This document shows positions 6,737 to 14,903 of a stretch of 64,000 bases of DNA, in pieces (position 1 is the first letter of the stretch; each line of letters begins with the position of its first letter). The notes under the pieces are model-generated. The model had not been told where the DNA came from. It ran no database searches and saw nothing but the letters and a program-made list of their open reading frames with translations. Position numbers and translations under genes: made by a program. Source of the stretch: Hyphomicrobiales bacterium (GTDB lineage Bacteria; Pseudomonadota; Alphaproteobacteria; Rhizobiales; Rhizobiaceae). The DNA lies in the NCBI GenBank assembly GCA_900467185.1, contig UBPA01000017.1, positions 62,001-126,000 of the forward strand. Direction: 5' to 3'.

Positions 6737-7129
6737 TCAGCCGACCCGGACCACGGCCTCGCCCTTGGCGGCAAGTGCTGCGAGGTCCGCAGGCTTGAGT
6801 TCGACCGATTCGCCGCAACCGCAGGCCGATGTCTGATTGGGATTGTTGAAGGTGAAGCCCGACCGCATCTTGGTGACTTCGAAGTCCATGCGCGTGCCGA
6901 GCAGATAGAGCACCGCTTCGGGCGCAACCCAGACACGGGCGCCTGCATGCTCGATCAGGTCGTCCTTCGCATGGGGTTCCGTCACCAGATCGACGGCATA
7001 TTCCATGCCGGCGCATCCGCCCTTCTTGATGGACAGCCGGATGCCCTTCGTATCGCCACCCGCGTTCTCGACGATGGCGTTGACGCGCTGTGCCGCCGCG
7101 TCGGACAGGCTCATGACCGCAAAACCCAT
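6737..7129 (-). CDS. sufA: SufA/IscA-type Fe-S cluster carrier
   Basis: A-type carrier (130 residues) that receives Fe-S clusters from the SufBCD scaffold and hands them to apo-enzymes. The conserved cysteines are visible: GGCAGMEY in the middle and the C-terminal ACGCGES pair. The start at 7129 is chosen because AGGAGA stands 8 bases upstream (GCAAGGAGAATTTCC). An upstream in-frame extension lacks such a site. It is the last gene of the suf operon, 75 bases after sufT. Confidence 0.93.
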   Translation of the reverse strand: MGFAVMSLSDAAAQRVNAIVENAGGDTKGIRLSIKKGGCAGMEYAVDLVTEPHAKDDLIEHAGARVWVAPEAVLYLLGTRMDFEVTKMRSGFTFNNPNQTSACGCGESVELKPADLAALAAKGEAVVRVG

Positions 7130-7204
7130 GGAAATTCTCCTTGCAACAACCGGGTTCAAGGCCCGGTGCTCTGCATTCGAATGTAAGACCCTATCGCCCG
7201 TTGA

Positions 7205-7597
7205 TCAATACCAGCCGACGGCGACTTGCGCCTCCTCGGACATGCGATCCGGCGTCCATGGCGGATCGAAGGTCATGGACACCTCGACGCCCGAAACGCC
7301 TTCCACCGCACCGACGGCATTCTCGACCCAGCCCGGCATTTCGCCGGCGACCGGGCAGCCCGGCGCCGTCAGCGTCATGGCGATCTTCACCATCCGGTCG
7401 TCCTCGATGTCGATCTTGTAGATCAGCCCGAGTTCGTAGATGTCGGCCGGGATTTCCGGGTCGTAGACTGTCTTCAGCGCGGAGATCACGTCGTCTGACA
7501 AGCGCGCCAGTTCTTCCGGCGGAATAGCCGACTGGACGATGCCGTCACGGGCATCCGCGGTTTCGCCTGTGGTGTCGGCCGGGGTCTCTAGGGTCAT
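7205..7597 (-). CDS. sufT: SufT-like MIP18/DUF59 Fe-S assembly protein
   Basis: DUF59 (MIP18-type) protein of 130 residues, a family that helps mature Fe-S proteins; in Agrobacterium the gene at this operon position is called sufX. The domain core is clear: VYDPEIPADIYELGLIY, followed by MTLTAPGCP with the family's conserved cysteine. The first 30 residues are a low-complexity acidic/threonine-rich tail. The ATG at 7597 has GAGGA upstream and comes 10 bases after the sufS stop. Its place between sufS and sufA supports the Fe-S role. Confidence 0.9.
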   Translation of the reverse strand: MTLETPADTTGETADARDGIVQSAIPPEELARLSDDVISALKTVYDPEIPADIYELGLIYKIDIEDDRMVKIAMTLTAPGCPVAGEMPGWVENAVGAVEGVSGVEVSMTFDPPWTPDRMSEEAQVAVGWY

Positions 7598-7607
7598 GCT
7601 CGTATCC

Positions 7608-8849
7608 TCACGCAAAGAATGTCCGCGCCTGTTCCAGCGCGGCGACCAGCACGTCGACTTCGGCGCGCGTGTTGTAAAGCCCGAACGAGGCCCGGCAGGT
7701 GGACGTCACGCCGAACCGCTTGAGAAGCGGCATGGCGCAGTGCGTACCCGCCCGAACCGCGACACCAGCACGGTCGATGACCGTGGACACGTCATGGGCA
7801 TGCACCCCTTCGATCTCGAAGGAAAAGATACCGCCCTTGCCCGGCGCCTGCCCGATCACGCGCAGCGCGTTCACCGACTGCAACCGCTCGGCCGCATAGG
7901 CGGCGAGATCCGCCTCGTGCCGCGCGATCCTGTCGCGGCCGATCCCGTCCATATAGTCGAGCGCGACACCGAGGCCGATCGCCTGCACGATTGGCGGCGT
8001 TCCCGCCTCGAAACGGTGCGGCGGCTCGTTGTAGCTGATCGCGTCCTCGCTGACGTCAATGATCATCTCACCGCCGCCCATGAAGGGCCGCATCTCGGCC
8101 AGCCGCTCCTTCTTGCCGTAAAGCACGCCGATGCCCGAAGGGCCGTAGAGCTTATGGCCGGTCATGACGTACCAGTCGCAATCGATGTCCTGCACGTCCA
8201 CCGGCATGTGCACCGCCGCCTGGCTGCCATCGACAAGCACAGGGATGCCGCGCTCACGCGCGATGCGGCAGATCTCTTTGACATCAACGATCGTGCCGAG
8301 CGCGTTCGACATATGCGTGATCGCCACCAGTTTCGTCTTCGGCGTCAGGCATTTGACGAAGTCGTCGATGTGGAACACGCCCTGATCGTCCACCGGCGCC
8401 CAGACCAGCTTGGCGCCCTGCCGCTCGCGAATGAAGTGCCAGGGGACGATGTTGGAGTGGTGTTCCATGATCGAAATCACGATCTCGTCGTCTGCAGCGA
8501 GTTTCGGCATGCCCCAGCCATAGGCGACCGTGTTGATCGCCTCGGTCGAGGACTTGGTGAACACGATGTCATCGACGGATGGCGCATTCAGAAAGCGCCG
8601 CACCGTCTCGCGCGACTGCTCGTAGGCATCCGTCGCGGCATTCGACAGGAAATGCAGGCCGCGATGAACATTGGCGTATTCGTTGGCATAGGCATGGCTG
8701 ATCGCGTCGATGACGACCTGCGGCTTCTGGGCCGAGGCGCCATTGTCGAGATAGACGAGCGGCTTGCCGTAGACGGTCCGCGACAGGATCGGGAAATCCT
8801 GCCGTATCCGCTCGACGTCATATGCCTCTAGGGAAACCGTCTGGTCCAT
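7608..8849 (-). CDS. sufS: SufS-type cysteine desulfurase
   Basis: Group II cysteine desulfurase (413 residues). It removes sulfur from cysteine as an enzyme persulfide for Fe-S assembly. The PLP lysine is in MTGHKLYGPSG (K233) and the catalytic cysteine in RAGTHCAMPLL (C371), the motif typical of SufS rather than IscS. It is the second desulfurase of this operon; a NifS/IscS-like enzyme is encoded at the operon start. No SufE or SufU sulfur acceptor is present in the window, so the partner must be encoded elsewhere. Confidence 0.96.
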   Translation of the reverse strand: MDQTVSLEAYDVERIRQDFPILSRTVYGKPLVYLDNGASAQKPQVVIDAISHAYANEYANVHRGLHFLSNAATDAYEQSRETVRRFLNAPSVDDIVFTKSSTEAINTVAYGWGMPKLAADDEIVISIMEHHSNIVPWHFIRERQGAKLVWAPVDDQGVFHIDDFVKCLTPKTKLVAITHMSNALGTIVDVKEICRIARERGIPVLVDGSQAAVHMPVDVQDIDCDWYVMTGHKLYGPSGIGVLYGKKERLAEMRPFMGGGEMIIDVSEDAISYNEPPHRFEAGTPPIVQAIGLGVALDYMDGIGRDRIARHEADLAAYAAERLQSVNALRVIGQAPGKGGIFSFEIEGVHAHDVSTVIDRAGVAVRAGTHCAMPLLKRFGVTSTCRASFGLYNTRAEVDVLVAALEQARTFFA

Positions 8850-8891: not shown

Positions 8892-10166
8892 TCAGGCGTG
8901 CCGCGCCAGCCATTCGGCGATGATGAGTTCCAGTGGCTCGATCAGCGTCTCGCTCTCCAGCTCCTCGACGATCTCGTCCACGAAGGCATTGACCAGCATG
9001 GCGCGCGCCCGGTTTTCCGGAATGCCGCGGGCCTGGAGGTAATACAGATGCGTCGGGTTCAGGTCGATCACGGTCGCGCCGTGACCGCACTGAACGTCGT
9101 CGGCAAAGATCTCGAGTTCGGGCTTGGCGGAGAAATCCGCGTCGTCCGACAGCAGGAGCGTGTTGCACGCCATCTTCGCATCCGTCTTCTGCGCATCCTG
9201 CGCCACACGGATCTGCCCCTGGAACACGCCGCGCGCCCGGTCGAAGAGCACGTTGCGAATGATCTCGGTCGAGGTCGTGTTGGCCACGTCATGGCCGAGC
9301 GTGAAGGTCACGTCCGTCAGGCTGTCGCCACCCATCAGGTTGATGCCGCGAAGCTTGAAGTCCGAGCCTTCGCCCGTTACCACGCCATGCACTTCCTGGC
9401 GCACCAGCTTGCCGCCGGCATTGATGACGAACAGCTTGAAGGACGCGTTTTCGCCTAGCTCGAAATTGAGCTGACCGAGATGCGTGTCGTCGTCGCCCTG
9501 CTGCTGCAACAGGATCCACGTCACCTCGGCGCCCGCCTCGATGATGAGATCGGACACGGACGAAACAAGGCTCGGCGTGCCATCGACCGACAGATGCCGC
9601 TCGATCACGGTCGCTTTGGAACCGGGCCCGAAGGTGACCGGAAAGCGGCTGTGGCTCTGTCCCGCACTCTGCACGATCTGCAGTTCCAACGGCTGAACCA
9701 GAACGGTCTCTTCCGGGATCTCGATCTCGAAGCCATCGCGAACGAAGGTGCCGTTGATGCGGCCGATGGCATCTTCGGTATTCCGCTCGACCAGATCGCC
9801 GGCCGCCGTCCCGTCGAGCAGGCTCTCGCCATAGCGCTTGACGACAACGCCCTGCGGCGCATCGCCGACGTCCGCCCGGCCATTGAGAACCGTCAGCACG
9901 GAGGAGCCGATCGCCAGAGGTGCGACCGCTTCCGCAAAGGCAGAGCCATCGAAGGCAGGAACGGTGCGCAGCAATGCGCGCAGATCGGTATAGTGCCAGG
10001 CCTCCAGCCGCCGCGTCGGCAAGCCGGCATCCTTCAGGTCGGAGAGCAGCAGGTCGCGCGCCGAGAGAACGGCGCCGTCACCGGGAAGGTCGCTGACCTG
10101 ATGATTATACGCTTCCAGCAGCGCCGTTTCGGCAGCCGTCCGCGTGATCGTGTTTTGAATGTTCAT
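8892..10166 (-). CDS. sufD: Fe-S assembly scaffold subunit SufD
   Basis: SufD (424 residues), which forms the SufB-SufC2-SufD scaffold and is needed for iron entry. The C-terminal half carries the beta-helix family signature, including a conserved histidine in DVQCGHGATV and RGIPENRARAMLVNAF. The N-terminal region is less conserved. The ATG at 10166 is preceded by AAGGAG about 10 bases upstream. The gene follows sufC by 14 bases. Confidence 0.94.
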   Translation of the reverse strand: MNIQNTITRTAAETALLEAYNHQVSDLPGDGAVLSARDLLLSDLKDAGLPTRRLEAWHYTDLRALLRTVPAFDGSAFAEAVAPLAIGSSVLTVLNGRADVGDAPQGVVVKRYGESLLDGTAAGDLVERNTEDAIGRINGTFVRDGFEIEIPEETVLVQPLELQIVQSAGQSHSRFPVTFGPGSKATVIERHLSVDGTPSLVSSVSDLIIEAGAEVTWILLQQQGDDDTHLGQLNFELGENASFKLFVINAGGKLVRQEVHGVVTGEGSDFKLRGINLMGGDSLTDVTFTLGHDVANTTSTEIIRNVLFDRARGVFQGQIRVAQDAQKTDAKMACNTLLLSDDADFSAKPELEIFADDVQCGHGATVIDLNPTHLYYLQARGIPENRARAMLVNAFVDEIVEELESETLIEPLELIIAEWLARHA

Positions 10167-10180
10167 GAGCAGACGCTCCT

Positions 10181-10936
<756 letters not shown>

Positions 10937-11184: not shown

Positions 11185-12654
<1,470 letters not shown>

Positions 12655-12791: not shown

Positions 12792-13958
12792 TCATGCCGC
12801 GGCGATCGTCGAGCGGCGCCGCCCGGCAATCCGGGCGAAGATGTCGATCAGCCGGTCGATCTCCTCGACCGTCGTCGTCGGCCCCATCGATATACGCAGC
12901 GCGCCAAGCGACGGATCTTGCCCCATCGCCATCAACACGTGGCTCTGCCCCACCTTTCCCGAAGAACAGGCGGACCCGGCCGACAGCGCGACACCTTCCA
13001 GATCGAAGGCGATCTGCCCCGTTTCGGCCTTCAGGCCCGGCAGGCTGAAGAACGTCGTATTGCCCACGCGCAGCGTATCGGCACCATGGATCAGCACATC
13101 CGGCGCGGCTTCCCGCATACCGGCTTCTAGCCGGTCACGCAAAGTCACGACATGCGCAGGGTAAACGCCAAGCGCATCCTGTGCCGCGCGTGCAGCTGCT
13201 CCGAAGCCGGCGAGCGCCGCCGGGTTCTCGGTTCCCGAGCGATGCCCTCTTTCCTGCCCGCCGCCATGGATGAGCGGGCGTGGCATCAGCACCTCGCCGC
13301 GTGCGACAAGCGCACCCGCCCCTTTCGGGCCGCCGATCTTGTGCGAGGCGACGATGAGAAAGTCCGCCCCCAGATCCGCGATCGACACCGGCATGCGGCC
13401 GACGGCCTGAACGGCATCGACCACCAGAAGCCCTCCGGCCGCTTTCACGCGCGCGGACACCTCCGCGATCGGCTGGATGACGCCGGTCTCGTTGTTGACC
13501 AGCATGACGGCGACCATCGCAATGCCTTTGTCTCGCGGATGCGCTGCAAGAGCGTGGTCGAGCGCATCGAGGTCCATTGTCCCCGTCGAAGTGACCGGCA
13601 GTTCCTCGACCCGATCTCGGGGAAAGCGCCCGCCTTCGCGCACGGCGGGATGTTCGATGGCCGACACATAAAGACGCCCGATACCAAGGGGTGTCCGGCC
13701 CATGCGGAACTCGGGTGTCAGCACCATATTGGCCGCTTCCGTCGCACCGCTGGTAAACGTGACGCAAGCGGCATCGGCCGCGCAGAGCGCTGCGACGTCG
13801 CGTCGCGCAGCCTCGATCACCGTCTTCAGCCGCCGGCCCTCCGCGTGGACGGAGGAGCCGTTGCCGGTCAGGTCGAACGCGGACAGAAACGCGTCGCGCG
13901 CGGCATCCGAGATTGGCGCCGTTGCGTTCCAGTCCATGTAGATCCGCGCCGTGGCCAT
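12792..13958 (-). CDS. sufS2: NifS/IscS-like cysteine desulfurase heading the suf operon
   Basis: Group I-like cysteine desulfurase (388 residues) with PLP lysine in VASHKIGGPKGAG (K207) and catalytic cysteine in SAGSACSSGKVG (C331), the flexible-loop type seen in NifS/IscS. In Agrobacterium the gene at the head of this operon is named sufS2, which I follow. The start at 13958 gives MATARIYMDWNATAP, the family N-terminus; a further in-frame ATG at 14036 would add 26 unrelated residues. A good CTTGAC promoter overlapped by an Irr-box-like element lies about 165-215 bases upstream. Confidence 0.93.
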   Translation of the reverse strand: MATARIYMDWNATAPISDAARDAFLSAFDLTGNGSSVHAEGRRLKTVIEAARRDVAALCAADAACVTFTSGATEAANMVLTPEFRMGRTPLGIGRLYVSAIEHPAVREGGRFPRDRVEELPVTSTGTMDLDALDHALAAHPRDKGIAMVAVMLVNNETGVIQPIAEVSARVKAAGGLLVVDAVQAVGRMPVSIADLGADFLIVASHKIGGPKGAGALVARGEVLMPRPLIHGGGQERGHRSGTENPAALAGFGAAARAAQDALGVYPAHVVTLRDRLEAGMREAAPDVLIHGADTLRVGNTTFFSLPGLKAETGQIAFDLEGVALSAGSACSSGKVGQSHVLMAMGQDPSLGALRISMGPTTTVEEIDRLIDIFARIAGRRRSTIAAA

Positions 13959-14122
13959 ATCGACCGTCCGTATCCTCTCCCTGACGCATGGTTGTGCACC
14001 GGGATCTGTTCTTGCCAAAAGCGCCTGCCGGCCCATCTAAACCGGAGCAGGCACCGCATTTTCCTTGAAGTTTTCGCTTCGCTTGCCGTAAGAGACGACA
14101 CCTGCACGCACGCCGTGCCAAG

Positions 14123-14151
14123 TTTTGAATGGTTCTAAACTGGTTTTAGAA
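14123..14151 (-). promoter_or_regulatory. candidate Irr (iron control element) operator of the suf operon
   Basis: Three related half-sites lie in a row: TTTTGAA (14123-14129), TTCTAAA (14133-14139) and TTTAGAA (14145-14151). The first two form TTTTGAA-TGG-TTCTAAA, one mismatch from the rhizobial Irr box as I recall it (TTTAGAA, short spacer, TTCTAAA). The second and third form a perfect inverted repeat with a 5-base spacer. The element covers the -10 and start region of the suf promoter, a place suited to repression by an iron regulator. It could also affect the divergent hydrolase gene. Confidence 0.6.
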
Positions 14152-14172
14152 AAGCTGAGTGCTTTCGTCAAG
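14144..14172 (-). promoter_or_regulatory. promoter of the suf operon
   Basis: On the minus strand CTTGAC (14172-14167) is followed after exactly 17 bases by CTAAAA (14149-14144). This fits the rhizobial housekeeping consensus CTTGAC-N17-CTATAT well. The predicted transcription start is near 14137, giving a leader of about 180 bases to sufS2. Confidence 0.6.
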
Positions 14173-14225
14173 ACAGCTCGACCGTCTTATCCGCTTATCG
14201 GAACCATGCTCACGCCGGAGACCCA

Positions 14226-14903
14226 ATGCCCGAAGTCATTTTCAACGGACCCGCTGGCCGACTGGAAGGCCGCTATCAGCCTTCCAAGCAGAAGAATGCG
14301 CCGATTGCGATCGTTCTGCACCCCCACCCCCAGTTCGGCGGGACGATGAACAATCAGATCGTCTATCAGCTTTTCTATATGTTCCAGAAGCGCGGCTTTA
14401 CCACGCTGCGGTTCAACTTCCGCTCCATCGGCCGCAGCCAGGGCGAGTTCGATCATGGCGCCGGCGAACTGTCCGATGCCGCCTCGGCGCTCGACTGGGT
14501 CCAGAGCATGCATCCGGACAGCAAGAGCTGCTGGGTCGCAGGCTATTCGTTCGGCTCGTGGATCGGCATGCAGCTTCTGATGCGGCGTCCGGAAATCGAA
14601 GGCTTCATCTCGGTCGCTCCGCAGCCCAATACCTACGACTTTTCGTTCCTCGCACCCTGCCCCTCCTCCGGCCTGATCATCAACGGCGATGTGGACAAGG
14701 TCGCTCCGGAAAAGGACGTCAACACGCTGGTCGAGAAGCTGAAGACCCAGAAAGGCATCCTGATCACCCACCGCACCATCCCCGGCGCCAACCACTTCTT
14801 CAACGGCCAGGTGGATACGCTGATGGCCGAGTGCGAAGACTATCTCGACCGCCGCCTGAACGGCGAGCTGACGCCGGAACCTGCGGCGAAGCGTATTCGC
14901 TAG
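14226..14903 (+). CDS. alpha/beta hydrolase, dienelactone-hydrolase-like
   Basis: Cytoplasmic alpha/beta hydrolase of 225 residues, no signal peptide. The oxyanion region is VLHPHPQFGGTMNN, the nucleophile elbow GYSFGSW, a probable acid aspartate is in INGDVDKV, and the catalytic histidine in PGANHFF. The LHPHPxxGGxMxN motif is typical of a conserved proteobacterial hydrolase group with no settled substrate. It is divergent from the suf operon and shares the region with the Irr-like box. A parDE pair follows. Confidence 0.88.
   Translation: MPEVIFNGPAGRLEGRYQPSKQKNAPIAIVLHPHPQFGGTMNNQIVYQLFYMFQKRGFTTLRFNFRSIGRSQGEFDHGAGELSDAASALDWVQSMHPDSKSCWVAGYSFGSWIGMQLLMRRPEIEGFISVAPQPNTYDFSFLAPCPSSGLIINGDVDKVAPEKDVNTLVEKLKTQKGILITHRTIPGANHFFNGQVDTLMAECEDYLDRRLNGELTPEPAAKRIR

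Follow-up and report, generated by a model that had tools for sequence, protein, structure and literature searches.

A suf promoter in a Rhizobiaceae genome with a predicted RirA-type operator over the -35 and a predicted Irr-type operator after the -10

Three short half-sites precede the suf operon in the 64,000-nucleotide stretch of Rhizobiaceae DNA analyzed here (the window), raising the question of whether they form one regulatory unit and which proteins might read them. On the plus strand the letters are TTTTGAA (14123-14129), TGG, TTCTAAA (14133-14139), the five bases CTGGT and TTTAGAA (14145-14151), as the first-pass annotation had listed them. Their assignment to a suf promoter also holds, with the half-sites lying upstream of an operon whose genes are read leftwards on the minus strand. 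The first gene is sufS2 (12792-13958, ATG at 13958), encoding a cysteine desulfurase; its product matches NifS/IscS-type cysteine desulfurases with a score below the curated NCBIfam cut-offs. It is followed by sufB (11185-12654), sufC (10181-10936) and sufD (8892-10184), all above the NCBIfam cut-off, and by sufS1 (7608-8849), sufX (7205-7615) and sufA (6737-7159), which were named from sequence and gene order.

The proposed promoter, CTTGAC-N17-CTAAAA, is present on the minus strand, with CTTGAC at 14172-14167 and CTAAAA at 14149-14144. The -35 hexamer was assigned by its conservation across promoters and the -10 hexamer by its distance of 17 bases from CTTGAC. A generic scan of 13900-14300 for sigma-70 promoters and terminators returned no match. 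As that scan demands a T at the last base of the -10, the reading of the suf promoter rests on conservation. A search for RNA elements in the suf leader found no Rfam match in 13500-14500 at E values up to 1. The stretch from the Irr-type box to sufS (13959-14137 in the window) is 161-183 bases long in the genus compared with mostly 110-155 bases elsewhere (up to 239). A gene coding for an alpha/beta hydrolase-like protein (14226-14903) starts at 14226, divergent from suf. By peptide motif search a hydrolase-like gene is divergent from suf in 123/125 genomes, so the suf intergenic region is common across the family.

For comparison, SufS was matched in 120/121 family genomes and in 7/7 genomes of the genus, together 125 distinct genomes. 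One genome lacking a SufS match (G086) was dropped, and weaker second SufS matches in three genomes were left out. The sequence compared was 601 bases around each sufS start in all 125 genomes. The 107 promoters with an Irr-type box were divided by SufS identity into a closer set (at least 63%, 31 promoters) and a distant set (below 63%, 76 promoters). Further relatives were drawn from the best 80 of 588 loci, including Rhizobium pisi, Sinorhizobium meliloti and Agrobacterium tumefaciens; these overlap in part with the 125 genomes, and the two sets are thus not independent.

The first two half-sites were considered as an Irr operator. The iron control element bound by Irr has the inverted-repeat consensus TTTAGAA-N3-TTCTAAA. 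The core in the window (14123-14139, within an operator of 14121-14141 covering both strands) reads TTTTGAA-TGG-TTCTAAA on the plus strand and TTTAGAA-CCA-TTCAAAA on the suf strand, flanked by a symmetric extension AG...CT; the limits were set by conservation of the core and extension columns. The site TTTTGAATGGTTCTAAA differs from the symmetric form at a single position. It shares with the consensus 13 of the 14 half-site bases, the N3 spacer and the AG...CT extension, and differs in that one suf-strand half is TTCAAAA rather than TTCTAAA. At the deviating position A is the commonest base in suf boxes of both the closer and the distant sets. A published Irr-bound site is TTAGAAATATTCTAGA (PMC6956336). 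In the window the symmetric form occurs once at up to one mismatch, where 40 first-order Markov sequences gave 0.0 on average; the corresponding figures are 1 against 0.025 at up to two mismatches and 1 against 0.1 at up to three.

Conservation across genomes was marked. The suf form TTTAGAA-N3-TTCnAAA was found upstream of sufS at up to two mismatches in 107/125 genomes, perfectly in 92, consistent with the earlier suggestion of an Irr-type operator over the predicted start of the suf promoter. The reversed pattern was found in 0/125 genomes, and 100 letter-shuffled patterns matched 0.5 genomes of 125 on average and never more than 7. When the spacer was varied at up to one mismatch, N3 gave 104 genomes and spacers of 0-2 and 4-7 bases gave 0-2. 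The AG...CT extension is also conserved in the column table, and the box is present in 80/80 of the best 80 of 588 loci.

The genome that contains the window has an Irr gene (IrrA NF045678, 226.4 bits against a cut-off of 150; L004). Irr is one of two Fur-family matches in the genome, the other being Zur-like by eye. The exact 17-base core string occurs once in the 5.04-Mb genome, and TTTTGAA-N3-TTCTAAA at up to two mismatches occurs at 8 distinct places (13 rows, counting both strands), compared with 2 rows for the reversed-pattern control. Five of the 8 boxes precede suf, mbfA, bfd-bfr, rirA and hemA, the last four with 1-2 mismatches to the half-sites of the window; mbfA, bfd-bfr and hemA were named by eye from their translations and rirA by its NCBIfam profile. 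The other three were placed by eye near an ABC-transporter gene (L014), a terminator-like stretch and flagellar gene (L011) and a phage-like gene (L015). The first of these, the Irr-like box TTTGGAATGTTTCTAAC at C10:25699-25715 (L014:1501-1517), has by eye a gene resembling those of sigma factors nearby as well as the one for an ABC-transporter ATPase, and is a possible further Irr target. Since the genome encodes Irr and carries like boxes before mbfA, bfd-bfr and rirA, Irr is the clear candidate to bind the first half-site pair, which on its pattern of conservation is a real operator.

The box is missing upstream of sufS in 18/125 genomes. Five of these are all five of the genomes lacking an Irr match among the 121 family genomes searched for the gene, the five additional genomes of the genus lying outside that search. 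The five are small (1.1-1.5 Mb) and possibly related, so their lack of the box should not be taken as five separate events. An Irr match is present in the other 13 (G004, G015, G018, G025, G033, G069, G082, G088, G092, G096, G106, G115 and G117); they may use another promoter, have a different first gene or have lost the site.

The third half-site (14145-14151, both strands) coincides with the -10 hexamer and two bases upstream of it, and its spacing shows to which element it belongs. CTTGAC is exact in 103/107 promoters with an Irr box and has one mismatch in the other 4; it lies 24-37 bases upstream of the Irr box, with a distance of 28 or 27 in 92/107. By a tally of hexamer lists, 68/107 promoters carry nTARAA at N17 from CTTGAC, and TA keeps a constant distance to the -35 in 31/31 closer and 70/76 distant promoters. 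The third element, searched for as TTCTARA at up to one mismatch, was found in 41/107 promoters. In 39/41 it stands 15 bases from the -35; the distance to the Irr box, by contrast, takes values of 2, 4, 5 and 6 bases in 1, 3, 12 and 25 cases, respectively. The closer set contains it in 29/31 promoters, always at 15 bases from the -35 (29/29) and with gaps of 2, 4, 5 and 6 to the Irr box; the distant set contains it in 12/76, although all 76 have the box. Among the best 80 of 588 loci it is present in 77/80, with the gap of 15 in 77/77 and gaps to the Irr box of 6, 5 and 4 bases in 72, 4 and 1. A gap constant to the -35 and variable to the Irr box means that the element belongs to the promoter. 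The third half-site is thus most likely the -10 hexamer, a promoter part and not an Irr half-site, and by this spacing the three half-sites do not form one unit.

The first-pass annotation had also described an extra palindrome and proposed that two Irr dimers might bind. The palindrome TTCTAAA-N5-TTTAGAA is indeed exact in the window; as a shared feature it did not stand, being exact in just 8/125 genomes, among them 5/7 of the genus, with the form broken in the other 2/7. The -35 is 27 bases from the Irr box here compared with 28 in 74/80 of the best 80 of 588 loci, and it is this one base fewer that gives rise to the palindrome. Two dimers side by side, with the middle half-site common to the N3 pair and the N5 palindrome, would account for the exact letters here and for the frequency of TTCTARA in the closer set and among the best 80 loci. 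Such an arrangement is nevertheless highly improbable, given the constant gap of 15 bases to the -35, the varying gap to the Irr box, the rarity of the element in distant promoters that all have that box and the few genomes with the exact palindrome. The fixed geometry between third half-site and Irr box expected of a tandem double Irr site was not found in the 41 promoters, and on these gap statistics the idea of a second dimer at that half-site was rejected. The boxes at mbfA, bfd-bfr and rirA in the same genome also show, by eye, no N5 palindrome like that of suf. Upstream of hemA (L002:1501-1527), the Irr-like box TTTTGAATGGTTCCAGA is followed after 3 bases by TTCTGAA, another apparent third half-site. 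It is barely conceivable that the one-base shortening is a genus-specific change by which a second Irr unit would contact the -10 and make suf repression steeper than in related genera. As a caution for motif searches, a promoter -10 of the form CTARAA can look like an Irr half-site.

With the third half-site read as the -10, the suggestion of a second regulator sharing the site was followed along the rest of the promoter. It holds in part: a candidate operator for another protein covers the -35 instead of the third half-site. The sequence TGACGAAAGCACTCA on the suf strand (14170-14156 of the minus strand, window 14156-14170) has the exact form TGA-N9-TCA, the published form of the RirA box (PMC6386902, PMC8822346), and overlaps the -35. 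An RirA gene is present in the genome (NF008886, 290.9 bits, cut-off 193; L007); of five Rrf2 matches, two exceed the Pfam cut-off and one of these is RirA. TGA-N9-TCA is present at the -35 in 31/31 closer promoters, covering 22 genera, where shuffling gives an expectation of 1.2, and in 2/76 distant ones. In the closer set it occurs nowhere else in the stretch searched. Any TGA-N9-TCA near distant promoters was found in 6/76 against 2.4 expected, a weak excess. Among the best 80 of 588 loci the box is present in 79, the exception being Hoeflea alexandrii, and both boxes stand at matching places in Rhizobium pisi (L166), A. tumefaciens (L203) and Sinorhizobium meliloti (L181). Upstream of irr in the same genome, one TGA-N9-TCA was found in 400 bases, which carries little weight by itself; in R. 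leguminosarum, irrA is among the published RirA targets (PMC5863699).

Alternatively, Irr might be the sole regulator, and the box might have come about incidentally, from the -35 and from common descent of a conserved spacer. Three of the six bases of the RirA core also belong to CTTGAC, and TCA opens a longer conserved run of 1.2-2.0 bits reaching up to the -10 in the closer set, TCAGCTTTTCTA; TCA is therefore not singled out on its 3' side, and shared promoter sequence explains part of its conservation. RirA was matched in 117/121 family genomes, so that with the box in 2/76 distant promoters RirA alone is no predictor of it, and in the available portions of two studies on S. fredii suf does not stand out as a target of RirA (PMC6386902, PMC8822346). 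Against this, the TCA columns are invariant in all 31 closer promoters (2.0 bits), whereas conservation drops to 0.4-0.9 bits at six of the nine interior positions; TCA is retained in 79 of the best 80 of 588 loci and found at the equal offset in 2/76 elsewhere; and both R. leguminosarum suf and A. tumefaciens sufS2 are reported to be under RirA regulation (PMC5863699). Irr acting alone is accordingly judged unlikely.

At offsets 18-22 from the -35, a CTTTT tract separates the RirA-type box from the -10; promoters of the closer set keep it almost without change, and those outside that set are only rich in pyrimidines there. The T tract upstream of the -10 was examined as part of a RirA palindrome and rejected, the mirror positions being not complementary by eye in the column table; it was for this reason taken as promoter sequence.

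A different Rrf2-family protein could also read the box over the -35. The genome encodes a second one (L006, 155 aa), which scores below all NCBIfam equivalog cut-offs, and at isc-suf P2 of Rhodobacter sphaeroides an IscR box from -36 to -19 accompanies a predicted Irr box from -13 to +1 (PMC6956336). That L006 takes this part is very unlikely, as the box has the published RirA form (PMC6386902) and RirA is already tied to suf in relatives (PMC5863699). The second regulator at the suf promoter is most likely RirA.

Taken together, the sufS2BCDS1XA promoter very probably carries a RirA-type operator over the -35 and one Irr operator after the -10, the third half-site being that -10. Both boxes, their positions in the promoter, their conservation and the Irr and RirA genes are observed. 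Binding by Irr and RirA, repression by both and a transcription start near 14137 are predicted. The Irr operator AG-TTTAGAA-N3-TTCAAAA-CT (suf strand) lies immediately after the -10 and covers the predicted start. In its heme-free form Irr binds DNA, and the position of its box decides whether it represses or activates (PMC7762939); a position over the start suggests repression. Under a shortage of iron and heme, Irr lacking heme would occupy the start and restrain transcription, which is also the behavior expected of it at rirA, bfr and mbfA. RirA with a [4Fe-4S] cluster binds when iron is sufficient (PMC5863699). With Fe-S clusters plentiful, [4Fe-4S]-RirA would occupy the -35 and suf would be turned down, in what would amount to feedback because Suf makes RirA's own cluster. 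The cores at 14123-14139 and 14156-14170 do not overlap, so both locks could act independently. As the rirA promoter of this genome also has an Irr-type box, low iron would cut RirA two ways.

This arrangement resembles known systems. Control of suf by RirA and also by Irr has been stated for R. leguminosarum, which shares the same operon and the same two regulators, and RirA control has been stated for A. tumefaciens sufS2 (PMC5863699). Dual control being already stated for R. leguminosarum, the window represents a conserved example of a known arrangement. A literature search on overlapping Irr and RirA sites at suf matched no paper. The isc-suf P2 promoter of Rhodobacter sphaeroides likewise has an Rrf2-family box over the -35 and a predicted Irr box over the start, with IscR in the place of RirA; in the part of that study available, Irr failed to bind this predicted box in vitro (PMC6956336).

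The published data on RirA and Irr at suf are not unanimous, and S. fredii agrees only partly. In S. fredii HH103 suf was raised in iron-poor medium (PMC6386902), which is at odds with a dominant role for Irr as repressor at low iron. The available excerpt on its rirA mutant reports just slight decreases of sufB and irr (PMC6386902). For S. fredii CCBAU45436, suf is absent from the main text of the RirA ChIP study, and TGA-N9-TCA is absent in 5/10 of the RirA ChIP peaks in the portion available (PMC8822346).

Rodionov et al. 2006 may already contain the contrast of an Irr box spread through the family with a RirA box restricted to a clade, and novelty is not claimed for it. With a RirA box in 31/31 closer against 2/76 distant promoters, although RirA itself is nearly universal in the family, it appears that the link between RirA and suf was either acquired later, in the spacer adjoining an existing -35, or lost in other lineages. 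The suf promoters of the family would form a layered regulon, in which the Irr-type site is family-wide (107/125 genomes) and the RirA-type site hardly occurs beyond the closer relatives.
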